A DNA stretch of 64,000 nucleotides from Flammeovirga sp. SJP92 (GTDB taxonomy: Bacteria; Bacteroidota; Bacteroidia; Cytophagales; Flammeovirgaceae): positions 372,001 to 436,000 of the forward strand of contig NZ_LQAQ01000015.1 of the NCBI RefSeq assembly GCF_001583495.1, given 5' to 3'. The position numbers and the translations under genes are program-made. The notes beneath the pieces are model-generated. The model did no database searches. It saw only the letters and a list, made by a program, of their open reading frames with translations, and was not told the origin of the DNA. Below are positions 2 to 16,594 of the stretch, in pieces. Within the stretch, counting starts at the first letter, position 1; each line of letters opens with the position of its first letter.

Positions 2-1300
2 GCTGTGGCATTGGCTACTTTAAGAGGACACTCTTTTGTCAATAAACAAACTCTAGATGAAGCGGTTTTGTCTGTCATGTGCATGGGAGATGAAATCAAA
101 ATGGAATTGATAAAGGAAAAATTAGTGCTCGCTGAGAAAATTGGTGAAGTTCCGGATTCCGTTCCTAAAGTTCCATTGCAAGAGGATTTTGAGAAGTGGG
201 TGAAGAAATTCAGGCTGAAATTAAATACGCTTGCCAAAGAAGTAAAACTTGATCTCCGTAAAGAAAATGATCTAAATAAAAGTATCTTTTTCCACCGTTT
301 AGAATTACTGGAAGTCCCTTGGGCCAAAAAAACGCACGCCACATCAAAGGGTACTTTTAAGGAATTATGGTTACTGGACTGGGAGCCAGAGATCATGGTC
401 AAAATAATTGAGCATGCTTACTTAGGTAATTCGATTGAAACGGCCACTCAAAGTAAAGTGATTGAAGACGGCAAACAGATCAATGAAATTTCCAATGCGG
501 CTTCATTACTCAAGGCTTGTATACCTGCCGAACTTTTCAAAGCCATTGAATTTATACTGGATCGCATCAATGAGCTTTCCGCTATTTCTTCTGATGTCAA
601 GGATTTGATGTCTGCCTTACCACAGTTAGTGGATCTAAGCAGATATGGTAATGTGAGAAAATCAGACTTGACGGTGTTGAGTAATATCGTTGATAATCTA
701 TTGATCAAAGTTTACATCAACCTGCCGAATGCTTGTTATCAATTGGATGAGGAGAATTCCAATAAGATGTTCAAATTGATTTTAGATGTCAATAATGCAG
801 TAAGAATCTATCAAGATAAAGAATTAACGGCACAGTGGTATCAGGCATTGCACAAAGTAATGCAATCATCTGGAGTTCACGCTATTATCAGAGGTTGTAC
901 TTGCCGTTTGCTTTCAGATGCTCAATTCCTCACACAAGAAGTAACTGAAAAAGAGATTTCCACCAATTTATCTGTGGGTAATCCTCCTCAAGAAGTTGCA
1001 TCTTGGATTGAAGGTTTTTTAAGAGGCAATGCCAGTATTCTTATTTACGACAACCACTTATGGAACTTGCTTTATACTTGGGTTGGGTCTTTAGCCAAAG
1101 ACATTTTTATTGAAATGTTGCCGATGTTAAGAAGAGCCTTTTCTCAATTTGAACCTGAAGACCGTCTCCAAATAGGTCAAAAAGCCAAAAGAGGTTTAGT
1201 CACTTCAGATGCATTTACTGATAATAATGAAGACAGTGATTTTGATACAGAAAGAGCAAGTCAAATCCTTCCAGTGTTAAGTGAATTGATGGGAATTTAA
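2..1300 (+). CDS. DUF5682-like protein, C-terminal part (5' end outside window)
   Basis: The frame is already open at the window edge (codon GCT at 2-4, then GTG), so this is the last ~433 codons of a longer gene. The visible part is soluble and mostly helical, with no signal peptide or membrane segment. It resembles the C-terminal part of DUF5682 proteins, which in many bacteria sit between a MoxR-type AAA ATPase gene and a VWA gene. A VWA gene follows here by 10 nt (or 1 nt if a TTG start is used), which supports that assignment. The family's molecular role is unknown; the association suggests a partner of an AAA/VWA remodelling machine. The acidic tail around residues 400-415 (NNEDSDFD) may be a flexible linker. 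The family call is from memory of resemblance and context, not from a profile search. Confidence 0.6.
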   Translation, partial: AVALATLRGHSFVNKQTLDEAVLSVMCMGDEIKMELIKEKLVLAEKIGEVPDSVPKVPLQEDFEKWVKKFRLKLNTLAKEVKLDLRKENDLNKSIFFHRLELLEVPWAKKTHATSKGTFKELWLLDWEPEIMVKIIEHAYLGNSIETATQSKVIEDGKQINEISNAASLLKACIPAELFKAIEFILDRINELSAISSDVKDLMSALPQLVDLSRYGNVRKSDLTVLSNIVDNLLIKVYINLPNACYQLDEENSNKMFKLILDVNNAVRIYQDKELTAQWYQALHKVMQSSGVHAIIRGCTCRLLSDAQFLTQEVTEKEISTNLSVGNPPQEVASWIEGFLRGNASILIYDNHLWNLLYTWVGSLAKDIFIEMLPMLRRAFSQFEPEDRLQIGQKAKRGLVTSDAFTDNNEDSDFDTERASQILPVLSELMGI

Positions 1301-1310
1301 ATTGAAAAAC

Positions 1311-2534
1311 ATGAATCAAAATAATGATATAGTAATGGAAACTCCCGAAAGCAAGCAACAGAACTTGGAAAGATGGAGATTGATGTTAGGTGGTGAAGAT
1401 GCTGATGGCACAGGTCACCAATTATCTGAAGAACTTACTGAATTAGATCAAACTTTGAGTGCGTTGTATGAATTTGAACGCAAAGGAAGTTTTGATTATG
1501 GTCCTGATGGAAAAAAGAAAAGCAGTAAAGGAGGAAGAGGAAAAGGTACTCCTTCTATTGCGAGGTGGTTGGGTGACATCCGAAAATATTTCCCTCAGTC
1601 TGTGGTGAATGTCATGCAGGCAGATGCGATGAAAAATGAGCGTCTGAAAGAAAAAATGATCATGGAGCCTGAGATTTTAGAAAAGGCGGAAGCTGATGTT
1701 CATTTAGTGGCTTCCTTAATGGAAATGGGCAAATTGATTCCTGAAAAAACCAAAGAAACCGCTAGAATGGTGGTCAAAAAAGTAGTGGATGAGCTGATGG
1801 ATAAATTGGAGCAGAAGACCATTGCTAGTTTATCAGGTGCTTTGGATAAAAGTGCTAGAAGTTTCAGACCAAGACACAATGAAATCAACTGGTCGGCTAC
1901 TATCAAAAAGAACTTGAAGCACTATCAGCCGGAATACAAAACGATCATTCCTGAAGTGAAAGTGGGTTATGGAAAGAAATCAAAACGCTCTTTAAAAGAC
2001 ATCATCTTATGTCTTGACCAAAGTGGTTCAATGGGTGAATCCGTGATTTACTCTGGCATTTTCGGAGCTGTGATGGCTTCTCTTCCAAATGTAAAAACCA
2101 AAATGGTGGTATTTGACACTCAGATCGCTGACTTGACTGAAGAATTAGAAGACCCTGTTGATTTACTTTTTGGCGTGCAATTAGGCGGAGGTACAGACAT
2201 CAATAAAGCACTACAGTACTGTGAAACATTAGTCGAAAAACCGGATGATACAATTTTGGTTTTAGTCACTGACTTATGTGAGGGTGGAGATCTGCAACAA
2301 ATGAAAAAACGTGCTTTATCACTAGTAGAATCAGGTGTTCAAGTAATTTGCCTTTTAGCTTTAGATGACAATGGCACTCCTTGGTACGATAAACAAAACG
2401 CCACATTTTTTGCCAATAACAACATTCCTGTTTTTGCCTGCACTCCAGATTTGTTCCCTGATATGATGGCGTCAGCAATACAGAAAAATGACATTAAAAC
2501 TTGGGCTTCAGAACACGACATTGTACTTCAATAA
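1311..2534 (+). CDS. VWA-domain protein (YehP/CoxE-like) of a MoxR-type operon
   Basis: A 407-aa cytoplasmic protein with a C-terminal von Willebrand A domain. The MIDAS metal site is intact: DQSGS near residues 235-239, the threonine in GGGTDI near 293 and the aspartate in VTDLCEGG near 320. The N-terminal half (1-200) is charged and helical, with a Lys/Gly-rich stretch (GKKKSSKGGRGKG) near residue 70. VWA proteins of this kind work with MoxR AAA ATPases, the VWA domain binding a client through its metal ion. ATG at 1311 is preferred over the in-frame TTG at 1302 because it is the first ATG and lies just after the upstream stop. The gene is the last of its operon, with a hairpin terminator at 2561. 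Confidence 0.85.
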   Translation: MNQNNDIVMETPESKQQNLERWRLMLGGEDADGTGHQLSEELTELDQTLSALYEFERKGSFDYGPDGKKKSSKGGRGKGTPSIARWLGDIRKYFPQSVVNVMQADAMKNERLKEKMIMEPEILEKAEADVHLVASLMEMGKLIPEKTKETARMVVKKVVDELMDKLEQKTIASLSGALDKSARSFRPRHNEINWSATIKKNLKHYQPEYKTIIPEVKVGYGKKSKRSLKDIILCLDQSGSMGESVIYSGIFGAVMASLPNVKTKMVVFDTQIADLTEELEDPVDLLFGVQLGGGTDINKALQYCETLVEKPDDTILVLVTDLCEGGDLQQMKKRALSLVESGVQVICLLALDDNGTPWYDKQNATFFANNNIPVFACTPDLFPDMMASAIQKNDIKTWASEHDIVLQ

Positions 2535-2650: not shown

Positions 2651-4186
2651 CTATAATATTTCTTTATTGATTTCGACTGTAATGATGTTTCTTATGGTCT
2701 TCTTATCGAGAAAATCTGATTTAGAATAAATTTCACCGATTCCAATATCACGCCCCATAATATCACCTTGAAGTTTTGCTACTAATGTTGTTTTGCTACC
2801 TGAAAGTTCAGGGTTCTTCTTCAACATTTTCTTACTTTTCTTTCTCAATTGTCTAGGTGTTTGAGTACCGAAAATCCAAACATTTCCTTCAATCACTAAA
2901 TAGGTTGTATCATTTAAACCTGAATAAGTAATAAGGTAATCTTCTTGGCTTTCATCAACCTTTTGGATATAATCAAATTCACTCAACAACTTCAATAACT
3001 GCTTCCCTTTTTTCTCATTTGGCATTTTAAAAGCTGCCTTAAGTATGAATTCTTGATCAAGACTATTAGGTTCCATATCAAAAGCTATCATCCCTGATTG
3101 GAAAAAGTTAAGAAAGTCATCATCCAGCATCAAAAAGCCTAGCTTCATCTCTGATAAAGTTCTATCAACATCGTAATTGATATGATCCATTATTTTATCT
3201 CTAAACATACCCAAATCCGCCCCGTAACATATAAAACTTGACACTTGCTCTGGCATATATTGTACTAAATCCATGTCAATCCCTACTTTCTTAGGTTCCT
3301 CTTTTGAAGAAGTCACACTGACAATTGACAATTTATTTTTTTCAAAATCACATCCAATCCAAGATGTTTCATATAAATGAAACTTTTGAAACTGCTCTAA
3401 AATTTCAAAAAAGTCATTGGATTTTGGTTTAAGTATAAAGTCGAATACTGAATTGTCATACCCTATGATTGTGATTAAAGAAAAAAAGGTTTTTTCATTA
3501 AAATGGAGAATAAAAGGTGAACCTGATAAATCACTTGGAATCTGTGCCTGCTTCTTAAATACTTTCTGCTCTGAAATTACTTTTTCATCGTTAGCAATCA
3601 GTTTATTGAAATAAGGTACAATGTTTACTTCATCTAAAGCATGAAGTGAATCTCTTACCGTAGAATACTCATCATAAGTGATTTTATTTAATCTAAACTC
3701 TTGATAAACTTCATAAGACTGCTCACTGTATTTTTTATCAATGATACCTTTATTGTAAAAAATCTTTACAATAAGATATTCTTCCCCTTTCATTACATAA
3801 CCAAATTGAGAATTCTGTTCTTCTTTTAAGTAAATAAAGTTTCCTTTCGTACTACTCACCTGCAATTTAGAAGATTCTATCACTTCATGAATCTTATTAA
3901 AATCGACTCCTTCATTTAACTTAAAACGTATTGTCAAACCACAATAAGCATCAACATCTTGTACAAAGACGACTGCTTCTTTGCTAATTTCAAAAATTTC
4001 TTTAAAATCAGACGAGAATACATCTTTCAAATATTCTTGTTCAAGAAGGCGGTTTGCATCATAATAAAATAAGAATGATAAACCTTCTGATGGAATATTG
4101 TTTAACAGCTGACTTGGATTATTTTTCGCATTAGTATTTATAGCTGATAGGAATAAAAAAATCAATAAAAAGTATCTGTTGATCAT
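2651..4186 (-). CDS. Secreted protein of unknown function (511 aa)
   Basis: It begins with a typical Sec signal peptide (MINRYFLLIFLFLSAINTNA, probable cut before KN near residue 20). There is no lipobox and no later membrane segment, so a periplasmic or exported protein is expected. The mature N-terminus (IPSEGLSFLFYYDANRLL) and the alternating strand/helix layout recall Bacteroidota DUF4836-type proteins, but I am not sure of the family. No catalytic motif is visible. There is no T9SS sorting domain at the C-terminus, which ends in a charged strand. The gene lies 134 bp downstream of the LytTR regulator on the same strand, so it could be co-transcribed with it or be a target of it; this is inference. 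Confidence 0.75.
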   Translation of the reverse strand: MINRYFLLIFLFLSAINTNAKNNPSQLLNNIPSEGLSFLFYYDANRLLEQEYLKDVFSSDFKEIFEISKEAVVFVQDVDAYCGLTIRFKLNEGVDFNKIHEVIESSKLQVSSTKGNFIYLKEEQNSQFGYVMKGEEYLIVKIFYNKGIIDKKYSEQSYEVYQEFRLNKITYDEYSTVRDSLHALDEVNIVPYFNKLIANDEKVISEQKVFKKQAQIPSDLSGSPFILHFNEKTFFSLITIIGYDNSVFDFILKPKSNDFFEILEQFQKFHLYETSWIGCDFEKNKLSIVSVTSSKEEPKKVGIDMDLVQYMPEQVSSFICYGADLGMFRDKIMDHINYDVDRTLSEMKLGFLMLDDDFLNFFQSGMIAFDMEPNSLDQEFILKAAFKMPNEKKGKQLLKLLSEFDYIQKVDESQEDYLITYSGLNDTTYLVIEGNVWIFGTQTPRQLRKKSKKMLKKNPELSGSKTTLVAKLQGDIMGRDIGIGEIYSKSDFLDKKTIRNIITVEINKEIL

Positions 4187-4320
4187 AATTTATATTTAAA
4201 TAGAATCTGTTTGTGTTTAGTTGATGATTCGAAATTGACAGTTCTATATTTATATCCCAAAACCAATTGATAAATGCAGAGGTATAATTAATAAATGATC
4301 AAATACGCTTTCTATTGAAA

Positions 4321-5055
4321 TTAAGTTGTTTTCAATTGTTGGACTACTTGTGAGTATTTTCTAGTCGAAACTTTTGCCATATACCCCTCTGTCAAGCTTA
4401 TTCCTGTTTTGGAAATATTGATTACATGTGATGGATTTATTAAAAAAGAATGATGTACTCTAATAAAGGCATTTAGTTCTTCAATGTTCTCAAAATACTT
4501 CAAATGCTTTGAAGCCAGAATGGTTTGATCTAGGCAAACAATCTTGGTATACGCTCCTTCTGACTCAAAGAGAATAATGCTATTGACTTCTATGAAATGA
4601 GTATTATCAGCCGTTTTTACAATGATTTTTTGCTCCTTTTCCTTCTGTTCTTCTTCAAACTGAGAGATAATGGCTGTTGCTTTTTTCTGTTCTTCAATTT
4701 GAACAAAAGCTTTATCTACTGCAATTTTTAATTCATTTGGGTCAATTGGTTTTAATAAGTAATCTACGGCATTTCGCTTGATGGCATCAATAGCATAATT
4801 TTCCAATCCAGTGGTAAAAATAATTTTAAAATGAATGGAAGACAACTGGTTCAACAGCTCAAAACTATTCCCATCTTCAAGCTCAACATCTAAAAAGATA
4901 AGATCCACATCTTTATTTTGATTTAAGAAAGCACCCCCCTCATGGATGGAAGGAAAGATTCCTATAATTTCAATAGATTGATAAAGTAGTTTGAGCATCT
5001 TACTTAATGCCTCTTGAGCGTTAAACTCATCTTCTATGATCACTATCTTATACAT
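4321..5055 (-). CDS. LytTR-family response regulator
   Basis: Residues 1-120 form a receiver domain with acidic pocket E8/D9, phospho-acceptor D56 (LIFLDVE) and the lysine of LLKPID. A helical linker (about 125-150) leads to a LytTR DNA-binding domain (about 150-244) with the family pattern of an internal ESEGAYTKI strand and IRVHHSFLINPSHV. LytTR domains bind DNA through a beta fold rather than a helix-turn-helix. The start lies 5 nt after the stop of the upstream kinase gene (5061-6905), so the two are one operon and almost certainly a cognate pair. Regulated targets are unknown; the secreted protein directly downstream is the obvious candidate. Confidence 0.93.
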   Translation of the reverse strand: MYKIVIIEDEFNAQEALSKMLKLLYQSIEIIGIFPSIHEGGAFLNQNKDVDLIFLDVELEDGNSFELLNQLSSIHFKIIFTTGLENYAIDAIKRNAVDYLLKPIDPNELKIAVDKAFVQIEEQKKATAIISQFEEEQKEKEQKIIVKTADNTHFIEVNSIILFESEGAYTKIVCLDQTILASKHLKYFENIEELNAFIRVHHSFLINPSHVINISKTGISLTEGYMAKVSTRKYSQVVQQLKTT

Positions 5056-5060
5056 ATCAT

Positions 5061-6905
5061 TTAGTTTAGTGTGAGTGAAAAGCTGACAACAGCTCCAGTG
5101 CTGTCATCTCTATTATTAATTGAAAGTGTATGTTCATCACCATTACCCATAATGGCCAATCGAGCTTTTAATACAGAAAGCGAATGTTCTTTTTTATCGT
5201 CAGAAACTCCCTGAAGACCAATGCCATTATCAATGACTTCAAAATATAATTTCCCCTCATTTTTAGTCACTTTCACTTCTAGAAAACCATCTTTTTTGAT
5301 CTTACGAAGTCCGTGTTCAATGGCATTTTCACAAAGTGGCTGTAGCATCATTGGAGGTATTTCTGAATACTCTAAATCCACTTGCTCTTCTACTGATATT
5401 CTATAATTAAATTTATGTCCAAAACGAATCCGTTGCGTTTCTATATAATTGGTCAACGCACTCAAATCCTCTGACAAGGTGATTTTTTCTTTATGTGTCA
5501 AATCAAAATTTTGCCTAATCAACTTTGAAAAACGTGAGATATACGAAGAAGTAGTCAAAGGGTCATTATCAAATAATGTATTTTGTATTGCAGTAAGTAC
5601 ATTGAAAATGAAATGTGGATTCATCTGATTCCTCAATATTGTATTTTTTAACTGAGTACGTTCTTGCTCATTTTTATGCTGAATATTCTTGTAATAAAGC
5701 AGGAACAGTAAAAATAAAATTACGACTATGACAGTAACCGCCGTTAGTGTTAGAATAATTCTCTCAAATTCTCTTTCAGCCTCTAATCGCTTTTCCTCTT
5801 CTTCTTGCTTGATTTTCTCTTTCTCTCTTTCCGATTTAAAAAGTTGGTCTTGTGTATTCAACATCTGTTCGAAATCATAGGAAATCTTTTCTTTCAGAAT
5901 ATTTTCTACAGAATCCAACTTAGAATAATACATTAAAGCTTTCTTTGTCTGCTTGTTCTGAATAGCATATTTCAAACTCTTCTCATAGATCACTTTCATG
6001 TATTTGGGAGAATTGTAAGTATGCTTTATTAATTCCTTATCATACTTCACTGCAAGATCTCCCTCCCCCATCGCATTGTAAACTTCTTCCAAGTTCGCCA
6101 GTGCATTATTCCATTTGTGAGGATATAGTTTTTTTAATTTTGCGGATTTATTATAATACCAAATTGCAATATCTGCATAATACAAACTATCCGTCTCTAA
6201 AAACATATTGAGGTAATTGGTCCCGATATTATTATAAGACTGAGAGATCTCCCACTTATTACTGTAAGAAATTCCATACTCTAGCGACCGCACATTATAA
6301 GCTATTGCTTTTTGATAAGCGCCTTGGTTTTTATACAATACAGCTAGGTTATTACACACTCTAGAGAGTTTCACACTATCATCAAACTCCACATAATAAG
6401 GAATAATTTTTTCCAATTCAATTAAAGCATGTGTCAAATCTCCCTTTTTATAATATAAATGGGCAAGACTTTCAATGATTTTAGCGGTCAGCACTTTATC
6501 ATCCACTTCAATTGCATTTTTTCTTGCTTTGAAAAGCTCCGTACAAGACTCTACAAAAAGATTATCATCAGCATAAATTCTTGACAAGCCCAAACGTATC
6601 CTCGCTTCAAAAGTCAAGTCTCCCTCTTTTATAAAATAATTAAGTGACTTTTTGAAAAGTATAATTGCTTCATGTGAATTTTCAATATCAGCATAATAGA
6701 TTGCCTTTAAATAATACAATCTTGCTTTATCACGTTCTGTATTCTCATTATTTTTAAATAGACTGTCAATTTTATGAACGACAGTTCCATCAGCTGATCC
6801 TTTACGGATTAAATCATTTAGTGTATCAAATTGAGAATCACTTAGTGTTTGTCCTGAGAGACTCAATACAAAACACATTTGCAATACAGTTAAAAAAATT
6901 CTCAT
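5061..6905 (-). CDS. TPR-containing sensor histidine kinase, LytS/YehU type
   Basis: Layout of the 614 residues: signal peptide 1-19 (LSLSGQ), a periplasmic helical array of TPR-like repeats to about 360, a charged coiled coil rich in EKEKIKQEEEEKRLEAE, one transmembrane helix near 383-403, then a His_kinase domain with LRNQMNPHFIFN (phospho-accepting His near 432) and a GHKL ATPase (NAIEHGL N-box; DNGIGL G1 box). This is the standard Bacteroidota architecture in which periplasmic TPRs sense a signal or partner. The paired LytTR regulator begins 5 nt downstream. The signal sensed cannot be told from the sequence. Confidence 0.93.
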   Translation of the reverse strand: MRIFLTVLQMCFVLSLSGQTLSDSQFDTLNDLIRKGSADGTVVHKIDSLFKNNENTERDKARLYYLKAIYYADIENSHEAIILFKKSLNYFIKEGDLTFEARIRLGLSRIYADDNLFVESCTELFKARKNAIEVDDKVLTAKIIESLAHLYYKKGDLTHALIELEKIIPYYVEFDDSVKLSRVCNNLAVLYKNQGAYQKAIAYNVRSLEYGISYSNKWEISQSYNNIGTNYLNMFLETDSLYYADIAIWYYNKSAKLKKLYPHKWNNALANLEEVYNAMGEGDLAVKYDKELIKHTYNSPKYMKVIYEKSLKYAIQNKQTKKALMYYSKLDSVENILKEKISYDFEQMLNTQDQLFKSEREKEKIKQEEEEKRLEAEREFERIILTLTAVTVIVVILFLLFLLYYKNIQHKNEQERTQLKNTILRNQMNPHFIFNVLTAIQNTLFDNDPLTTSSYISRFSKLIRQNFDLTHKEKITLSEDLSALTNYIETQRIRFGHKFNYRISVEEQVDLEYSEIPPMMLQPLCENAIEHGLRKIKKDGFLEVKVTKNEGKLYFEVIDNGIGLQGVSDDKKEHSLSVLKARLAIMGNGDEHTLSINNRDDSTGAVVSFSLTLN

Positions 6906-7332
6906 ATATAATTTAGATCTTCAATCGTATCTGTAGTTAGTTGTACTTCATCAACTAATATCACAGGCTTATTTTTGATTAAAAAATATGTTATGAGTTA
7001 TTGACATTAGACTTTATTAAGTGCATTATTATGGCGGAAAAAGTAGGTATTTGATTGAAAAGGTATTCATTCTTAGCTATCACAGATCAAAAAAAGAGAT
7101 ACAACTTCTATTTTTTAATAGACATGTCTTATTGAAAACTCAACTAGATTAAACTTTCATTATTTCTAAATATTTAAATACATCCAAAAGCTTTTTCTAC
7201 TAACATTAATTAGGTCTTCAACGCACTTATCAATTTTTAAAATACACTTATCAATTATAATTCAACACTTGCACATAACATTATAAATTCACTCCCACAT
7301 TAAATAAATAACATCTGAAAAAATAAATTACA
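6906..7332. other. Intergenic region between divergent kinase and giant-gene operons
   Basis: This 427-bp gap is very AT-rich and should contain the promoters of the divergent units. I see no open frame of coding character and no RNA gene. The one clear structure is the pair of 12-bp direct repeats at 7224-7256, listed separately. Confidence 0.6.
7224..7256 (+). promoter_or_regulatory. Direct-repeat operator candidate upstream of the 1383-aa gene
   Basis: The 12-mer CACTTATCAATT occurs at 7224-7235 and again, identically, at 7245-7256. The repeat period is 21 bp, i.e. two helical turns, so both copies would face the same side of the DNA. It lies 77-109 bp before the start codon at 7333. This spacing suits a dimeric activator or repressor, but no binding protein can be named. 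Confidence 0.4.
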
Positions 7333-10300
7333 GTGGGAGAATACACCAAAAACCAAGTTATCTACCTACAGAAAGATAACGTTGCATCAATCAAAAATGC
7401 TCTACAGAAATATCAAGTAGTATTAAATAACCGAACGGCTATCTCGAATAAAGGATTTCACATGGAAATGGATGTGAAATTTATGGAAGATTCTGGTGAT
7501 GAACCAAGAAACCTGAAAACATCAGATATTAAGGATTTTGAAACCTTTAAAAAAGCCTTTGCTGTACGAAGCCCTTCTTTTGATCAAATGAAACAAGAGG
7601 ACTCTTATAGAGATGACTTTGAAGCTTCACTTCTCTCTGAACCTCTATTATTTTCTCTTGCTTTGGAACACGAAGAACTTAAAGAAGAGGTTATCAAAAC
7701 AGCAAAAGGAATTGCTGAAATCAGTCGTCATTATAACAATAGTGAGTCCATGTGGACCTACAATTCTAGTGCTTATGGTGCTGTTGCCTTGTATATATTA
7801 ACCTGTAATGACATCAATTATGCTTATATACTTGCTCAATACCTTATTCCGTATTGGGATGAACGCTATACTTGTGATTATGATTGCTATCTCTTTGAAT
7901 TAGTGAAGCAACACGGTTGGATTCGCCCATTAATCAAAGCCTATTTGTATTGTGACAACCCTAATTTCAGGGCTGGAATGATGAGAATAGGGTATTATCA
8001 TGGCAACCTCCCACAAGATGAAAATCCTACTTTGTTTCATTTCTTAAAAGAAAATCCAGAAGAATATGCTTGGTTCAAAGAAAGTATAAAAGAGAGGTTA
8101 TTAGATGAACCTATGCTGTACTATAAAGGGGAAGACGATAGTGAGAATCCCGTACTAAGCCTTTATTATACATTAAATGGAAGTGTAGATGCTATCCATG
8201 ATGAGGAGGATGAATTTATCTCTGAATTCTTTATTTCTGATACAATAGAAAACGAAGCTACCGATCTTTACAATTCCATCCTTAATAGTACCGACCAGCC
8301 ATTAATGCGATTGGATGGTGAGGGAGAACTAGAAAAAGAGGCAAGACAATATACTGACAAAGACACCTATACTCCAGGTGAAGGCATTATGGATTTTAGG
8401 GCATTTGTGATGGCCTTAGAATATGGTGCTCAAATATGGCAGTACGTGGAGAATGGAGAGAATGCGGAGCTTATTAATTCATTGGACAAAGTGGATGTGA
8501 TGGGGTTAGCATTAGAAAGTAGTCCTGCACTTTATCACAAGATCAGTTATCACCTCCCTGGTGTAGATCTTGATGATGATTGCAACCCAATGAATAAAAA
8601 CAAAGGGTTGGTGGATGAAATGGATCATTGTCTACGAGAAATCATTGATGACCTTACATTATTTAATGATGAATCTCTTTACGCAGATGACATCCCTCAA
8701 GCTTTCAATCCACTACCTGAACATAGAGGTGAAGTAAGATATCAGCAACTAATCAGAGTGTTGGATGTCTTCTATGTGTTGTTGGGTAAACCCACTTTTG
8801 TAGATGATGTATGTGAACGTATCATTGAAGATAAGGAAGAGTATTGTCTCTCCACCGCAGAGTTTTATGATCGATATAGCGAGGAAAATTATGCAGAAAA
8901 TGGCAAATTACCTCCCCTTTTGGTGAAACAAATGGCCTCTATTGTGGAAGAGTTTTCCACTCCATATGACAGAGATTCAATCGATACTGATCTATTAAAA
9001 AAACTAGATTATTGTCTTTCTACATCAAGAGGATGTTATAATACCGATCATTTAGGTAAGCATAATGCAGGTGATATAGCCCTTGCCAGCTATATGCTAA
9101 AAATGGATGAGCAAAATGGAATCGAAGATCAATACACCTTACAACTAAAAGAATATTTACAGGCATTTCAGTGGGAAAAAGTAGCTTCTATTTTTACTGA
9201 AAGAGACCGTTTTTCAGATCTTATTTCTGAAGACACCAAAGAGAAAATCAACAATTATATCACTGCTATAGATACTCCTCTACTAAGTCAAGAGGAAATG
9301 ATGGCGCTCTTAAATGATACACTTGTTCCTTATGAAGAAGAGTATAATGGAGCTAGAGTACATCATTTTTCAAAAACGCAAAGAAGCTATTACATTTTAA
9401 GATTCGATGACAATATATCAAAGGTTCTAATTTTCTCTTTCTGGGCTCAAACACTTTCATACTCTAAAGATGATCCAAGAGCCAAAAGATTTTGGAATTT
9501 GATGTTGGCACTTTCACCTTTTTGGGTATTGAATAAAATACTTAAAACTGCTTCTTCCTCTTATGGTGATTTGGAATTTGAATCTCCTCAAAAAGAAAAA
9601 GCGTTCTTCCAATCTCTCTCTGAAGTAGGCGTTCCCGACTCTCTCCTATTTGCATTTGAAATCGTCAAATCTCAGAATAGTTATGGAAAAGGAACAGTAA
9701 AAGATCTCAAAAGATATTTACCTTGGATCAATACATTTAAGCTGGTCCAGCAAATGGATAAAAACGATGCAATGTTTGATATGCTTCATTACAGAGTGGA
9801 ACAATTGAAAGAGGGCTTGAAATCTGCAGATGATATTAATGTAGTTCAATTCCATCGTGATCTGTCAGCTTCTGATGAGGGGTATAATTTTGACAAGGAA
9901 ACGGAAAGTTTATTTCATGATTATCTACATGTTTTTTTTACATTAAACTGGAAAGACGATTCCAAAGAGGGCATTGCTGATATGGTCGCAAAAATGATAG
10001 ACTACATAGAAGGCAATTTGGATTACGATACTTTTGCTCCTCTTTTCTGGTCAAAAATTAAAGGCAAGAGATTTCATACTTATGTGGATAGCTATAAATC
10101 TTATTCTTTTGAACAATTTTTCTGGGGACTTCGCGAAAGTAAACAAGATCGTTTGATCAAATTATTATCGAATGGCACTTCTGCCTCTTTCTCCATTTTG
10201 TTTAATGGTTTAGAAAGAGGTTATAAAGAAAAGTTAGTCAGAGAAGGACAGCTTAAATTCAAAGATATCATTGATCTTGACTTTAAAGATGATGAAATAA

Positions 10301-11484
10301 AAGAGCAAGCACATGCCTACTATATTAATAGAGTTTTCTCGTTAGGTGCTGATAAAATTCGTTTGATAAAATACTGTATTGATCAGGAGGAAAAAGCTTA
10401 TGGTAATTATCTAGGGAAACTTGGAAGAAGAGGTGAATTAGATGATGTCGTTTCTGAATTGAATAAATCTAGGAAGAATAGTCTGATTGATCATTTTAAA
10501 GACCAATCAGGTGCAGAACAGCTTATAGGTCTTTTCAAAGATGATTCTTCTAGAAAAATTAAAGACAAAGCTCGTCATATTCTTCAAAAACTCAAGGTGC
10601 AAGAACCTGTTGAAGAAGAATGCGAAAACCTCTATGACTTTGGGGTATACGATTATTGTGCTTCTGAAATAAATCTTCAGAATCAAACTGATAAGATTGT
10701 TGCTATCATAGGAACTACATTTGGTCTTCGTTTTGTCGTCGGCAAAAATGATGATAGAGATATTATAAATCACACTGTATATGTTCAACATCCAATTATA
10801 AAAGATGGTGCCAAAACATCGGAACGCAGTGAATGGACACAACAAGGGAAAAATGGACAAGCAATTTTTGCAGGTTGGACTTTTGAGACTGCAGATGAAT
10901 TAATCTCTGGTGAGTATAGTTTTAAAATCTATGATTGGCGAAGAAATCTTATCGCTGAAAAGTCATTTTTAATAGAATCTGAAGTGCTTACTCAACTTAA
11001 ACAAGTTCATAATGAGGAAGAGCAAAGTGATGGTTACTACACTTTCTGTAGTCCAAAAACAGAAGGAATTGTAATAGAGGAAGGAGAGCAACTATTAAGA
11101 AATAATCAACCCATTGTACCTAATAAAGCTGTTGAATTTGATGGTTATGGAGTTTCAGAAAGTGACCTTAACAATATCATTATTTGTGATTATGTTTTGG
11201 TTTCTGAAAAAGTAGCAAAAGCAATTGGTAAGCATCATCCATTTGGATGTTTCTTCATCCCTGCCCTCATCAATACTTCAGATGGCAAATCGATTCCTTA
11301 TTACCTTATAAAACCCACTATTTATTTCGGTTCGGAGGAAACGGAAGTTCATCAAAACACACTCATTTTCACTATTGAAAATCAAACTTCCAATTTAATA
11401 TTTAAGAAAGTGATCAGAGATGAACTACAAGAAATCATTGGTTCGGAAATCCTAGAAAAACTGGAAGTGGTAACATCAAACTAA
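7333..11484 (+). CDS. Giant DUF3859-like-domain protein A (1383 aa, unknown function)
   Basis: A very large, soluble, acidic protein without signal peptide or membrane helices. Residues 1-1090 look like a long helical scaffold; a HEAT-like helix pair (SRKIKDKARHILQKL) precedes a beta domain at about 1100-1215 that resembles DUF3859 (YDFGVYDY, GLRFVVG, VQHPI, AGWTFE, SGEYSFKIYDW). About 150 further residues (1233-1383) follow that are absent from the paralogue at 12030. It is homologous along its whole length to that paralogue: IPYWDE/IPYWDD, KAYLYCDN/KAYCYCDN, QIWQYVENGE/QIWNYIKTGE. GTG at 7333 is the only plausible start: an in-frame stop lies at 7324 and the N-terminus aligns with the ATG-started paralogue. 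Operon head; the 148-aa gene follows after 8 nt. Function unknown. Confidence 0.88.
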   Translation: MGEYTKNQVIYLQKDNVASIKNALQKYQVVLNNRTAISNKGFHMEMDVKFMEDSGDEPRNLKTSDIKDFETFKKAFAVRSPSFDQMKQEDSYRDDFEASLLSEPLLFSLALEHEELKEEVIKTAKGIAEISRHYNNSESMWTYNSSAYGAVALYILTCNDINYAYILAQYLIPYWDERYTCDYDCYLFELVKQHGWIRPLIKAYLYCDNPNFRAGMMRIGYYHGNLPQDENPTLFHFLKENPEEYAWFKESIKERLLDEPMLYYKGEDDSENPVLSLYYTLNGSVDAIHDEEDEFISEFFISDTIENEATDLYNSILNSTDQPLMRLDGEGELEKEARQYTDKDTYTPGEGIMDFRAFVMALEYGAQIWQYVENGENAELINSLDKVDVMGLALESSPALYHKISYHLPGVDLDDDCNPMNKNKGLVDEMDHCLREIIDDLTLFNDESLYADDIPQAFNPLPEHRGEVRYQQLIRVLDVFYVLLGKPTFVDDVCERIIEDKEEYCLSTAEFYDRYSEENYAENGKLPPLLVKQMASIVEEFSTPYDRDSIDTDLLKKLDYCLSTSRGCYNTDHLGKHNAGDIALASYMLKMDEQNGIEDQYTLQLKEYLQAFQWEKVASIFTERDRFSDLISEDTKEKINNYITAIDTPLLSQEEMMALLNDTLVPYEEEYNGARVHHFSKTQRSYYILRFDDNISKVLIFSFWAQTLSYSKDDPRAKRFWNLMLALSPFWVLNKILKTASSSYGDLEFESPQKEKAFFQSLSEVGVPDSLLFAFEIVKSQNSYGKGTVKDLKRYLPWINTFKLVQQMDKNDAMFDMLHYRVEQLKEGLKSADDINVVQFHRDLSASDEGYNFDKETESLFHDYLHVFFTLNWKDDSKEGIADMVAKMIDYIEGNLDYDTFAPLFWSKIKGKRFHTYVDSYKSYSFEQFFWGLRESKQDRLIKLLSNGTSASFSILFNGLERGYKEKLVREGQLKFKDIIDLDFKDDEIKEQAHAYYINRVFSLGADKIRLIKYCIDQEEKAYGNYLGKLGRRGELDDVVSELNKSRKNSLIDHFKDQSGAEQLIGLFKDDSSRKIKDKARHILQKLKVQEPVEEECENLYDFGVYDYCASEINLQNQTDKIVAIIGTTFGLRFVVGKNDDRDIINHTVYVQHPIIKDGAKTSERSEWTQQGKNGQAIFAGWTFETADELISGEYSFKIYDWRRNLIAEKSFLIESEVLTQLKQVHNEEEQSDGYYTFCSPKTEGIVIEEGEQLLRNNQPIVPNKAVEFDGYGVSESDLNNIIICDYVLVSEKVAKAIGKHHPFGCFFIPALINTSDGKSIPYYLIKPTIYFGSEETEVHQNTLIFTIENQTSNLIFKKVIRDELQEIIGSEILEKLEVVTSN

Positions 11485-11492
11485 ACATCGAA

Positions 11493-11939
11493 ATGAGAAA
11501 ATTAATCAAAATAAATAAAGAGAACTGGTCCAATTTCTATGATGATGCAACGCAAAGAATGTTTGGTTGTGAACCTGAAATGTTGATCAATTTCACTCCA
11601 TACATTAATCTTTTTGTATTTGATTATGGAAGGTTAAAGCAGAATATTCACTTCTATGTCGGTTGCGAACTCACCCCTGCAAAAGTGGAAGATAGAGATG
11701 GAGATATTGTGGATAAAGTAAGCCATGCTTATATGAATTTCAATCTTTCTGAAGACAATTTACAATCTGATGGTTCTGATGAAAACACTTTTATTCTTGA
11801 AGGAAAACCTGAACTAAACGAAATCCATTTCTTTCGTAATGAAAGTGATCTTTACAGCTTTTTTATATCAGAAGAAGCACTTCAGGGTTTGAGAGTTAGT
11901 GAGGATTGTAAAGAAGATATGGAATGTAGGACCTATTAA
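11493..11939 (+). CDS. Small unknown protein linked to giant protein A (148 aa)
   Basis: An acidic soluble protein beginning 8 nt after the stop of the 1383-aa gene, so translationally linked to it. No signal peptide or membrane segment. Hydrophobic strands (INLFVFDYG, IHFYVGCEL) alternate with acidic loops, suggesting a small alpha/beta fold. It has no counterpart after the second giant gene, whose protein also lacks the C-terminal extension of protein A. That co-occurrence suggests this protein pairs with the extension. I do not recognise the family. An immunity- or chaperone-like role would fit the size and position but is speculation. Confidence 0.75.
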   Translation: MRKLIKINKENWSNFYDDATQRMFGCEPEMLINFTPYINLFVFDYGRLKQNIHFYVGCELTPAKVEDRDGDIVDKVSHAYMNFNLSEDNLQSDGSDENTFILEGKPELNEIHFFRNESDLYSFFISEEALQGLRVSEDCKEDMECRTY

Positions 11940-12029
11940 ATCGAGAGATTTTTAGAAGACATCCAACAAATAATTAAATTCTAATCATGAGGCTTATTTC
12001 TCTACGCCTCAAATTATTACTCCATCAAA

Positions 12030-15000
12030 ATGTACGAAGAATACGAGGCAAAATATGTCCTAGATTATAACCCAAATGATATTGAATCTATCATTGAGGC
12101 ATCAAAAAAATATGCAAACTTGGTCCTTTCAAAAAGAGGATTTAGGGACGACTATTGTGTGATTCAATTCAAACCTTCAGAAGCAATTACAAAAGACGTA
12201 TTTGCGGAGCATGCCAAATTGAATAAACTTGTAAAGTCAAAGTACGATACAACAACTGAAAACTTAGAAGATTCAATGTTGACCGAGACACTATTCTTTG
12301 CCAATGCATTACGATTTCCGGAACTTGAAGAAGTTGTAAAATCTGTAGCAGAAGATGTAGTGACTTTCTCAAGGGAAACGAATGATTCTTCTGAAATGTG
12401 GATCAATTGTGAAGAGCCTTTTGCTTTAGAATGGTTGATGCTATTTGCGTCAGTTTATCCAAAATACGGTTATCTGTTGGGAAGCTTTTTTATTCCTTAT
12501 TGGGATGATGAACATATGCCTGATTCACTTGAATCACTTTCTTCATGGAGTGATCAATTCGGCATTAATTCAGATACCATCAAAGCTTACTGTTACTGTG
12601 ACAACAGTTCTGCAAGAAAGGTGATGCTAGGATTTGACATCTATGGTTATTCTTTTGAAAAAGTGGATTGTCATTTCGATTTAATTACTCATTTCAGAAA
12701 TGATCCTTCCTCTTATGATTTTTTCAAAAAGACATTAGCAGAAAGATTTAAAACTCTTCCCTTTTTACAACATACTGATGATGAACGCTATTATATTGAA
12801 AATCCAATTAAGGAAATCGTCATTGAACTCCTCATGGTTCATCATCCTGAAGAGGGAGATGATTTCGATGAAATAGAATACCTAGAGCACACTTTTATCC
12901 ATAAATCAGCGAGAGAGGAAATTGATGAAATCACAAAATACATCGAAGATGTCAATCAGCAACCTATTGTCCCTAGTCACAAAGAATATGTAGCCTACAT
13001 TCAATCCATCAAAGAAAAACGTGCACCTAAAACCGATTTAGAAGGATGCTGGAAACCTTTTATTCTAGACTCCTTTTCTAATGGAATACAAATTTGGAAC
13101 TACATCAAAACGGGTGAGCAGGTGTTTAATTTTTCTGAAGTTGAAGCAATTGATCTGTATCAAAAAATCGATGCTCATGATGCTGATTTGATCTTACTGT
13201 TTGAGCAAGAATACATTCATAGTAATGGTGATTTATATGAAGACCTTGATCGAGTTTTAAAGGCTCACTTTATTCATTGGACAAAAGAAGGAAACATCAA
13301 AAACGCTGAAAAACAAATGGCTCTTCGACTCTTAGATCTTATTTTTAGATGGTTAAATAGAAAGCCTTTTGAAAATGATACACAAACAATTTTAGCAAAG
13401 CATCAGATTTGTTCTGATTCAGAGTTTCAATCGAGATACAAAGCGCATTGGTTTTCAGAACTAGAGTTTGTATTAAATGAATTTGGTGGCTATTCAAGTA
13501 CTGTTACAAGGGAACAACTTGAGAAAGGTTATTTATTAATCGAAGAAAATCGTCAAGAGGCAATTTCACTTTTAAATCAATCTTTATTTCATCAGAAAAA
13601 AAGTCGCTCACACAAAAGTTATGGCAATGTAGAAGTATTAGTGCTTGCCTCTTATTTAGTTCATAATGACAGAAAAAAGAAATATCAAGATGCTTTGACT
13701 ATAAATGCTATTGATTTCATTAAAAAGCACTTATATGATTCAGTAGTGAGTGATTTAATTCGATCTATGACATTCTCTGATTTGATTATTAAAAAAGGGG
13801 TAGTTCAAAAAGCACCAGATTACTATCAAGAAAAACAAAGATTGGAATATGAAGTTTTAGCAAATGATTATCACCTTTTTATAGATCATTTAAAATCTGA
13901 AAATTTAGGTATTGAGACTTTTCAATTGTTAGAGAAACATCTAAAAACAGAGGAAGACAGCCCTATTTCAAAAGAGCAACCTCATATTGAATGGATGGAT
14001 AATTTTTCTGATAAAACGCAAAAGTTATTAGTGGCTATTCATTATATTTTTAATGAAAAAGAAATCCATCAAATTAAGGCTTTACGTTTTGTATTAAAAT
14101 CAGCTTTTCAAATTGCCCCAGTAAAAACAGTTCATTTCCTAGATAAGGTTTATAAAGAACATCCCTATCGATACGACACTCCTCAGCAGTTTTTGAATAT
14201 GCTCGATTTATTGCTCCAATTTGGTCTTACAGAAGAAGGGTATTGGGGTTATGCAATGGAACAATTTTACCATACTTCAAACCCTGAAGATAGCATTGAG
14301 TACAAGGAAATGTTGTGCATTTGGCAGGGTACAAGAAACATGGCATTCAGTGTAAAATGTGAGTGTACACCCAATCAATCTAGCCTTACTAAAGGTATTC
14401 AAAAACTACCTTTTAGACTTCAAAACAAATTATTAGCTGAAGCAAAGAAGGTAGTAGGAGTCGCTCCCTTAGAGGTGAATTATAAAAAGTCGATTGTAGA
14501 ATACTTTGATCGCAAACTTCGAAAGGAGTTTATCTTCGAGGACAACCCTATTTATCTAAAGAATAGACTTGAAGGTGAAAAAATCTTTTGTGAATACATC
14601 AAATGGGACACTTGGCAACATCATAAGGAGTTGTTACAAACCATTATTAAAGATATCAAAGTCGAACATGAGGATGAGCTTAACCCAAAAGAAGCCCAAG
14701 AGGAATTATGGAAGATCAAGGGGTGGCGTTACATTATTCTTCAAAAAAATGGAGAAAAATTAACGCCTATTTATGGTGAGCGAGTGTTATCGTTATTGCA
14801 ACAAGGGTTTGATCAAGAGAATATTTATTATGCTCACACGCATTGTATTATCATAGATCAAAATTGCCCTGCCGATTATCTAAAGGAATTACTATCTTCT
14901 GACATGAGATTCAATTATAAAGAGATTTGGAGAAACAGCATCAAGTCATTTTTACTTTACGGCGGTGACAAAGAAAAAGTGGAACTGATTAGTCAATATG

Positions 15001-15860
15001 GAATCGATAAATGGAGATTTAATCAAGAGGATGATTATTCTGAAACTTCAATTAAAGACCTTTTTGATCATCTCCCTGATGCTTTACAAAAAAGGGTACT
15101 CTACTTACTAGGCTGTATTTCTGAGGAGGCTTTAGTTCTTAACTTAAAAAAATCACCTCAAGAATACTTCGAATTACTAGAAATAAGTAAGGTAGATTAT
15201 TCAACCATTTTCAGATACTTTTTATCTCAAACCAAACTCTCCAATCCGAATATTTATCTACAGATATTCAAAGAAACAGATGGTGCTCCATTAATAGAAA
15301 GTGAAAAAACAGAGATTAAAATCCCTATGCTTTCCATCATGGCCCACCTTCCAAAGTACTATCAATATATCATTTCTTTGGAAAATAGTAGCTCTGCTAA
15401 AATCAAAGAACATGTGAAAATGTTGATTGAAAAATATCAATTGAAAGAGAAGGTCATTGAATACGTTATTGTGGATTTTGGGATCTATAAGATGCTAGGC
15501 AATACTGATGAAGGTGGAGAACGTAAAATAGCTAATGAACCAGTTCTATTAGAAGAAACTGACCAAATATCAGCTAAAATCAATCAGTATATCGGTCTAC
15601 GTTTTACAGTAAAAAATCATGATAAAGCTCCAAAGGTTTGTCAGCATATGGTTCGCATTGATCATCCAATTAAAGATGAGAATGGAGCAATTTCCTACAC
15701 TCAATCTTCATGGAGGCAAAACGGATTAAGCAATTCTAATATTTTCTTAGGATGGCATTTTGAAAGTGAAGAGGAACTGATTGCAGGGGAATATAAAATG
15801 AGTGCTTTTGATGAAGAGGGGAATTTGTTGGTGAGGAAGAGTTTTAAGGTAATAGTGTAA
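12030..15860 (+). CDS. Giant DUF3859-like-domain protein B (1276 aa, paralogue of A)
   Basis: A 1276-residue soluble protein homologous from end to end to the 1383-aa protein at 7333. Shared landmarks in order: EYxAKYVL N-terminus, LTETLFFANAL, IPYWDDE (about residue 157), KAYCYCDN (about 189), QIWNYIKTGE (about 355), LVLASYLVHND (about 545), a helical pair, and a C-terminal DUF3859-like domain at about 1145-1276 (VDFGIYKM, GLRFTVKN, RIDHPI, LGWHFES, AGEYKMSAF). It stops at the end of that domain, without A's extra tail. It starts with ATG 90 bp after the 148-aa gene; a weak hairpin (TGAGGC/GCCTCA, 11988-12011) lies in that gap. The divergence from A shows an old duplication. Function unknown; a scaffold or adaptor role is inference. 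Confidence 0.9.
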   Translation: MYEEYEAKYVLDYNPNDIESIIEASKKYANLVLSKRGFRDDYCVIQFKPSEAITKDVFAEHAKLNKLVKSKYDTTTENLEDSMLTETLFFANALRFPELEEVVKSVAEDVVTFSRETNDSSEMWINCEEPFALEWLMLFASVYPKYGYLLGSFFIPYWDDEHMPDSLESLSSWSDQFGINSDTIKAYCYCDNSSARKVMLGFDIYGYSFEKVDCHFDLITHFRNDPSSYDFFKKTLAERFKTLPFLQHTDDERYYIENPIKEIVIELLMVHHPEEGDDFDEIEYLEHTFIHKSAREEIDEITKYIEDVNQQPIVPSHKEYVAYIQSIKEKRAPKTDLEGCWKPFILDSFSNGIQIWNYIKTGEQVFNFSEVEAIDLYQKIDAHDADLILLFEQEYIHSNGDLYEDLDRVLKAHFIHWTKEGNIKNAEKQMALRLLDLIFRWLNRKPFENDTQTILAKHQICSDSEFQSRYKAHWFSELEFVLNEFGGYSSTVTREQLEKGYLLIEENRQEAISLLNQSLFHQKKSRSHKSYGNVEVLVLASYLVHNDRKKKYQDALTINAIDFIKKHLYDSVVSDLIRSMTFSDLIIKKGVVQKAPDYYQEKQRLEYEVLANDYHLFIDHLKSENLGIETFQLLEKHLKTEEDSPISKEQPHIEWMDNFSDKTQKLLVAIHYIFNEKEIHQIKALRFVLKSAFQIAPVKTVHFLDKVYKEHPYRYDTPQQFLNMLDLLLQFGLTEEGYWGYAMEQFYHTSNPEDSIEYKEMLCIWQGTRNMAFSVKCECTPNQSSLTKGIQKLPFRLQNKLLAEAKKVVGVAPLEVNYKKSIVEYFDRKLRKEFIFEDNPIYLKNRLEGEKIFCEYIKWDTWQHHKELLQTIIKDIKVEHEDELNPKEAQEELWKIKGWRYIILQKNGEKLTPIYGERVLSLLQQGFDQENIYYAHTHCIIIDQNCPADYLKELLSSDMRFNYKEIWRNSIKSFLLYGGDKEKVELISQYGIDKWRFNQEDDYSETSIKDLFDHLPDALQKRVLYLLGCISEEALVLNLKKSPQEYFELLEISKVDYSTIFRYFLSQTKLSNPNIYLQIFKETDGAPLIESEKTEIKIPMLSIMAHLPKYYQYIISLENSSSAKIKEHVKMLIEKYQLKEKVIEYVIVDFGIYKMLGNTDEGGERKIANEPVLLEETDQISAKINQYIGLRFTVKNHDKAPKVCQHMVRIDHPIKDENGAISYTQSSWRQNGLSNSNIFLGWHFESEEELIAGEYKMSAFDEEGNLLVRKSFKVIV

Positions 15861-15907: not shown

Positions 15908-16594
15908 TTAATTTATAATTTCAGCTAATACCTTCTCAAACTTCTCTTCACAAACATCACATCTTATGGTTAAAATTTCATGATTTAGCTCTAAATAGAT
16001 AGTTTGTGAGGAAGTACTTCCACAATTATCCCCTTTATGTTTCTCGATATATTTGATAGACTTTAATAGGTTTATTGAGACTTGTCTTTCGGTTTGCTTT
16101 TTACGGTCAATCTTCAATATGGTATCATTTTCAAAATCGATTACTAACCCTATCCCCTTTTCACTTGAATGAAAACACCCCGTTACTCTTATATGTATGT
16201 TTATTGTATCGACATGTTGGATTTTATCGCTTAAAAAGGTATTCTCTTCTATAGGTTTATAAAAATATTTCATAGCAGTAAAATTCATTTCATGAAGATT
16301 ACTATGATAAGCAACAGAGATTGTATCATTAAAAACGGATGCAAATTGTAAGTTTTTAATTGTTGAGTTTAATGTAGCAGAATGATAAGTTGCAGGAAAA
16401 TCACCTTCAAAATTACTGTTAGATTCAAATTTAAAGTCATGACCTGAGACAGTTTCTCCTCCAATCAGTTTCCATATCATAGGGTCAAAAAAATCATTAG
16501 AATAGAGAGAGTCATACTGAATCACAATGGTATTTTGTCCCAAAGTGAAAGAAGAAATCAATAAAAGTACCGTTGTAATTAATTTAGTTTTCAT
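15908..16594 (-). CDS. Exported protein of unknown function (228 aa)
   Basis: A signal peptide occupies residues 1-19 (MKTKLITTVLLLISSFTLG, cut before Q). The mature protein is beta-rich and has several cysteines (near TGCFHSS, GDNCGS and RCDVCEE) that could form disulfides or a metal site in the periplasm. No membrane helix, lipobox or sorting domain. It is convergent with giant gene B and separated from acs by a strong terminator, so it is its own unit. I do not recognise a family. Confidence 0.72.
   Translation of the reverse strand: MKTKLITTVLLLISSFTLGQNTIVIQYDSLYSNDFFDPMIWKLIGGETVSGHDFKFESNSNFEGDFPATYHSATLNSTIKNLQFASVFNDTISVAYHSNLHEMNFTAMKYFYKPIEENTFLSDKIQHVDTINIHIRVTGCFHSSEKGIGLVIDFENDTILKIDRKKQTERQVSINLLKSIKYIEKHKGDNCGSTSSQTIYLELNHEILTIRCDVCEEKFEKVLAEIIN

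Follow-up and report, generated by a model that had tools for sequence, protein, structure and literature searches.

A tandem pair of giant DUF3859-containing paralogs in Flammeovirga: an old split, an accessory distribution, and a possible association with a MoxR-vWA gene cluster

What keeps two very large and strongly diverged copies of one gene next to each other in a bacterial genome? This question is raised by a stretch of 64,000 nucleotides from Flammeovirga sp. SJP92 (contig NZ_LQAQ01000015.1, positions 372,001 to 436,000; hereafter, the window), in which two giant genes lie on the plus strand: A (window positions 7333..11484; GTG start, 1383 aa) and B (12030..15860; 1276 aa). A gene for a protein of 148 residues (11493..11939, plus strand) is located between them and starts 8 bases after A. 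The pair is real, it is undescribed within the literature and family searches made here, and it has been kept by selection; its function is something that we infer. We tentatively propose that the two proteins are the subunits of a scaffold or receptor in an accessory module for stress or conflict, and that this complex may be a client of the MoxR-vWA pair encoded by a cluster located nearby.

Homology and domain composition of A and B

The open reading frames (ORFs) of both genes are intact. BLASTP aligned the two proteins in two blocks, the first comprising 574 alignment columns (A 90-631) with 24% identity and an E value of 7e-29, and the second comprising 166 columns (A 1063-1214 and the C-terminal end of B) with 36% identity and an E value of 3e-22. 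Neither giant contains a strongly hydrophobic stretch, the largest 19-residue mean hydropathy being 1.25 and 1.07, respectively. An earlier note on this DNA, made from the sequence alone, had described two soluble, strongly diverged giant paralogs with homology along their full length. The paralogy stands and is secured by the two aligned blocks; the full-length homology was confirmed only in part, because residues 632-1062 of A were not aligned to B in the pairwise comparison (the family profiles that partly cover this region include A itself) and the C-terminal extension of A (about residues 1214-1383; window positions 10972..11481, plus strand) has no counterpart in B. This extension of ~170 residues has no Pfam family, it was modelled with blocks of the predicted local distance difference test (pLDDT) of 24-37, and it shows no similarity to a 238-aa protein that adjoins a family member in Vibrio coralliilyticus.

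The DUF3859-like beta domain that the earlier note had proposed for both proteins was confirmed. The Pfam model PF12975 matched A with 26.6 bits at residues 1115-1212 (window positions 10675..10968, plus strand) and B, which ends in this domain, with 29.0 bits at residues 1148-1274 (15471..15851, plus strand), both scores being above the Pfam curated cut-off of 24. In both proteins the domain was modelled with confidence as an immunoglobulin (Ig)-like beta-sandwich, as in the Ig-like protein PA1606 (PDB 3n6y). Whereas 3n6y is a small, stand-alone protein of 137 residues, the domain of the giants comes after a body of more than 1000 residues that has no known family. No paper naming DUF3859 was found in the literature searched.

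The bodies of A and B had been said to match no known family, and all our searches agree with this. No Pfam or NCBIfam family was found above the cut-off; PADLOC-DB 2.0.0 returned 0 families at E values up to 1 for A, B, the 148-aa protein, and a 228-aa protein encoded downstream of B; and neither the PDB sequence search nor the comparison of profiles with PDB yielded anything above chance besides DUF3859 and 3n6y. Weak sub-threshold matches to the body exist, for example to ULD_2 in Pfam (E value 0.075). The self-comparison of the family profile listed no internal repeats, and Pfam detected no MoxR AAA+ or vWA domain in A or B. Two candidate relatives of the body were considered and rejected: DUF4132 (MolR/YehI) and DUF5691 gave no Pfam match, and profile comparison with three proteins of each kind resulted in a probability of 0.2 of 100. 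As for the long helical body of the earlier note, the word helical has a low-confidence model as its sole basis. In the structure model of B 77-1276, every block of ten in the body, through model residue 1000, has a pLDDT within 21-49, and this part of the model is unusable, probably because its input consisted of eight sequences in two clusters. The bodies are probably alpha-rich, as far as such a model can suggest.

An Ig-like domain in a protein of this kind recalls the DNA glycosylase AlkC, which combines HEAT-like repeats with an Ig-like domain, and A and B might be nucleic acid binders in the AlkC manner, acting for example in DNA repair or in the sensing of foreign DNA. The likeness lies in the fold of the Ig-like domain. 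The AlkC chain, however, has 361 residues, the giants are over three times longer, and no catalytic domain was shown in them; we consider this explanation improbable.

Distribution and age of the pair

The family-profile search of the 18 genomes of the Flammeovirga family identified members in 7, one of which has merely a remnant; thus, A and B are not an invariant housekeeping set. Among 390 genomes of the order, 10 had a match, two of these through DUF3859 alone, and among 395 genomes sampled across the phylum the window's own genome was the sole match. Within the genus, the pair is present in 4 of 9 genomes, namely that of the window (G000) and G003, G004, and G005, and is therefore accessory; in a fifth Flammeovirga genome, G008, B survives as a remnant of its C-terminal part, and the 148-aa gene has left a broken trace. 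Searching 72,556 records of a plasmid collection with tblastn revealed four Vibrionaceae records in total: V. campbellii and Photobacterium sp. GJ3 were matched with B as the query, and the same two plus two V. coralliilyticus plasmids with A. No phage-encoded member was found by tblastn of B against 50,697 phage records. The V. campbellii member (L032:14920-19034) is broken into two ORFs of 836 and 524 aa, which may reflect decay or an error in the sequence.

In a tree of the giants (12 rows), one clade (support 86/87) contains the A proteins of Flammeovirga, the G012 member, and one member from G665, with the V. coralliilyticus protein and one G010 member (on C9) belonging to it less certainly. 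The other clade (100/100) contains the B proteins of Flammeovirga, the second G010 member (on C8), and the second G665 member, followed by the Photobacterium and V. campbellii proteins. The branches of V. coralliilyticus, Photobacterium, and the C9 member of G010 are long. Because Flammeovirga and G665 have members in both clades, A and B separated before these pairs diverged from one another. The four Flammeovirga genomes and G665, which represents another Cytophagales family, share the arrangement of A followed by B on the same strand; these five are the tandem-pair genomes referred to below. In G665, A and B are separated by 7 bases.

The DUF3859 domain is carried by 6 of the 11 family members scanned; the A-type G012 protein and the C9 member of G010 showed no match to it. 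In a tree of DUF3859 domains (20 rows, leaving out G629, G529, G718, and two Flammeovirga), the domain of A falls among the giant-borne domains, not the stand-alone ones, with modest support; the Photobacterium branch is very long, and we do not trust its placement.

Selection, exchange between strains, and the 148-aa gene

Comparison of the four pair-bearing Flammeovirga genomes gave ratios of nonsynonymous to synonymous substitution rates (dN/dS) of 0.10-0.12 for A and B alike and of 0.11-0.20 for the 148-aa gene. No segment (80 codons; 50 in the 148-aa gene) exceeded 0.27, and the alignments contain 2 gap columns in all. Both A and B are under purifying selection in Flammeovirga, and neither is diversifying. 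Together with the old split, the tandem order in a second family, and a body without a family, this supports the earlier view of a maintained, apparently undescribed system.

Two further ideas of the earlier note were not supported. One was that the two copies are self and non-self versions, which is at odds with the uniformly low dN/dS and the near-absence of gaps. The other was that the linked 148-aa gene is a part of the system, which it is not in general: matches to it were found in 5 of the 390 genomes, four Flammeovirga and the broken trace in the fifth, its product has no match in the plasmid collection, and in G665 no such gene separates A from B. A conflict system with self and non-self versions, in which the 148-aa gene is the immunity or antitoxin gene, would agree with the patchy distribution and the one decayed copy, with the location of the Vibrio members within integron-like arrays, and with an Imm51 gene found near the C8 member of G010. 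However, this Imm51 gene converges on the giant, so the two do not form one operon; A, B, and the 148-aa protein matched no toxin or immunity family; the 148-aa gene was found in Flammeovirga only; the A/B split is old; and purifying selection is uniform, the comparison of the four genomes having revealed no variable region. We therefore regard a conflict system of this design as very improbable.

The history of the locus within the genus differs between the giants and their surroundings. Over the six genome pairs, dS is 0.24-0.33 for A and 0.34-0.46 for B, that is, similar across pairs, whereas the dS of the neighboring genes is mosaic (vWA, 0.23-1.11; LytTR, 0.56-1.36; SWIM, 0.18-0.76). DNA identity changes sharply near position 7300 against L023 alone, and beyond 15,860 the window departs from all three relatives. 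The even dS of the giants, the mosaic neighbors, and the breaks in identity all fit a block that has been exchanged between strains.

The MoxR-vWA cluster and the proposed role of A and B

A run of SWIM, DUF5691, MoxR AAA+, DUF4132, DUF5682, and vWA genes occupies the DNA to the left of the window and the first 2.5 kb of the window itself. Pfam identified the C-terminal part of the DUF5682 gene at window positions 5..1300 (plus strand; the rest of the cluster lies left of the window, in L031) and the vWA gene (VWA_CoxE) at 1302..2534 (plus strand). The cluster adjoins the pair in all four pair-bearing Flammeovirga in a similar arrangement, and G665 has SWIM, DUF5691, MoxR, DUF5682, and vWA genes in one run that lacks DUF4132. 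A search for DUF5682 and DUF5691 covered 21 selected genomes (all 18 family genomes, G665, and two with a DUF3859 gene beside a SWIM gene): all five tandem-pair genomes have both, and the 14 other genomes of the Flammeovirga family have neither.

A comparable run is known from E. coli K-12, where yehI (DUF4132), yehK, yehL (MoxR), yehM, yehP (vWA), and yehQ (SWIM) are found together; the genes beside the Flammeovirga giants include DUF4132, MoxR, vWA, and SWIM, plus DUF5691 and DUF5682. Unlike the core of a MoxR-vWA system, the giants themselves have no MoxR, vWA, or DUF4132 domain, and the 26-kb E. coli yeh region contains no such giant by annotation, no sequence search having been made there. 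The annotation of E. coli K-12 calls yehL putative, and both yehK and yehM uncharacterized. No paper naming DUF5682, DUF5691, or DUF7737 was found in the literature searched, and the main text of Kaur et al. (2020; PMC7159879) does not mention SWIM, MolR, or YehI. According to that paper, MoxR and vWA together capture a substrate peptide and remodel complexes, which makes A-B as their client a natural and testable hypothesis.

Given that A and B are anciently distinct, adjacent, and under purifying selection, a heteromeric complex is the least demanding reading. A and B would be two non-interchangeable subunits of a single cytosolic complex, probably made from one transcript. Their bodies would be long helical scaffolds, probably alpha-solenoids, with the Ig-like DUF3859 domains as putative binding modules at the ends. 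The pair may belong to a horizontally moving accessory stress or conflict repertoire, and in tandem-pair bacteria it probably works with the SWIM-DUF5691-MoxR-DUF5682-vWA chaperone cluster, possibly as a client that MoxR and vWA assemble or remodel. The bolder version of this idea, in which A-B is a new mobile two-subunit machine and the dedicated client or output arm of the yeh-type cluster, we consider unlikely.

It is also quite possible, if short of probable, that A and B are a two-subunit scaffold or receptor unrelated to the cluster, the two sharing a spot and a lineage by chance. A number of observations point this way or weigh against a partnership. The pair and the cluster are separated in Flammeovirga by three or more oppositely directed genes, and in G665 the cluster and the giants are unlinked, being on different contigs. 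Phylogenetically, the co-occurrence amounts to two lineages, one Flammeovirga group and one other genome. DUF5682 is absent from the genomes that carry the G010 and G012 members and the G008 remnant; conversely, G040 and G055, which were chosen for a stand-alone DUF3859 gene, have DUF5682 and DUF5691 and no giant. BLAST found no cluster genes around the family members of G010 (C8), G012, G665, V. campbellii, or V. coralliilyticus, and 12 of the 14 stand-alone DUF3859 loci examined have no SWIM or DUF5691 neighbors. Furthermore, the cluster genes are mosaic in their history, and the giants do not follow them. Between G000 and G004, dS is 0.13-0.23 in SWIM, MoxR, DUF4132, and vWA but 1.27 in DUF5691; between G003 and G005, it is 0.19 in SWIM, 0.36 in DUF5691, 0.47 in MoxR, and 0.90 in vWA. 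The DUF4132 gene of the window's genome is 94% identical in G004 and 53% identical in G003, and the clusters of G005 and G665 lack DUF4132 despite intact giants. A chance association, in turn, has to contend with the distribution of DUF5682 (all five tandem-pair genomes and none of the 14 others of the family) and with the location of a G010 member beside a DUF4132 array.

If the pair is indeed a client of a yeh-type MoxR-vWA system, it would be a testable substrate encoded outside the cluster's own operon. Even if it is no client, it is an old adjacent pair of giant paralogs that is accessory and seemingly moves between strains, which in our judgement is unusual for genes so large.

Other genomic contexts of family members

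The C9 member of G010, which is diverged, is located upstream of, and on the same strand as, small genes and the DUF4132 array. Immediately preceding DUF4132 genes in G010 and G008 are genes for small proteins of 127-142 aa (L025:1518-1910 and 4819-5247, minus strand; L117:2800-3183, plus strand) that share the C-terminal motif FIKLTPL(V/I)GG; the two from G010 have no Pfam family above the cut-off. The C-terminal Gly-Gly is reminiscent of MoaD/ubiquitin-like proteins.

The Photobacterium member lies before Ter genes, 396 bases from a TelA-TelA-TerD-TerD run on the same strand, an arrangement seen once. The Ter system is described, in the part of PMC7824862 used here, as countering incoming phages and xenobiotics, and this agrees with a stress or conflict setting for the Photobacterium member. 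No TelA or TerD genes were found near the G010, G012, G665, V. campbellii, and V. coralliilyticus members by BLAST or in the Flammeovirga stretches. When cluster, Ter, and Flammeovirga-neighbor proteins were used as BLAST queries, the giants alone matched at the loci of G010 (C8), G012, G665 (C11), V. campbellii, and V. coralliilyticus.

On the V. coralliilyticus plasmids, the members are found in arrays of small, mostly same-strand genes. The member there has 803 aa and is accompanied by the 238-aa neighbor mentioned above (L046 and L047, 11425-14568). In L046, the one locus scanned, nine short repeats occur on both sides, and none was detected at 7.6-15.2 kb, where the member lies. These look like integron repeats of the Vibrio cholerae repeat (VCR) type.

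Stand-alone DUF3859 genes

Matches to DUF3859 came from 21 genomes, 6 of them in giants and 15 outside giants; 14 of the latter were examined, and G718, under the cut-off, was dropped. The flanks covered up to about 8 kb, some ending with the contig. Since the ORF listing kept the longest of overlapping ORFs, the DUF3859 ORF of G629 is missing from it. In two genomes of one genus, a stand-alone DUF3859 gene is located between SWIM and DUF5691 genes. We rejected DUF3859 as a general marker of MoxR clusters, as these are the only 2 of the 14 loci with SWIM and DUF5691 beside it.

Neighboring genes

DUF4132 occupies the variable slot of the cluster (L031:13998-17042, L115:7823-10864, L116:7444-10488, and L114; absent in G005): between G000 and G003, its dN is 0.39, compared with 0.009 for MoxR.

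Three genes on the minus strand (2651..6905) lie between the cluster and the giants and encode a 511-aa protein, a LytTR response regulator, and a TPR-containing histidine kinase. The 511-aa protein (2651-4186) has no Pfam match and is fast evolving, with 35-69% identity among the four Flammeovirga; G004 has two copies of its gene. A LytTR regulator and a histidine kinase thus adjoin the Flammeovirga cluster (window 4321-6905), and btsR/btsS are found near the E. coli yeh run (L113:14244-16645). The genus is rich in such kinases (9-19 matches per genome), and so their proximity is probably due to chance.

Downstream of B, the window encodes the 228-aa protein (15908-16594, minus strand). In the other three pair-bearing Flammeovirga, a 286-aa gene is found downstream of B instead (L028:3067-3927, plus strand), and its product was identified as PD-(D/E)XK transposase-like (PF12784) in the single copy scanned.

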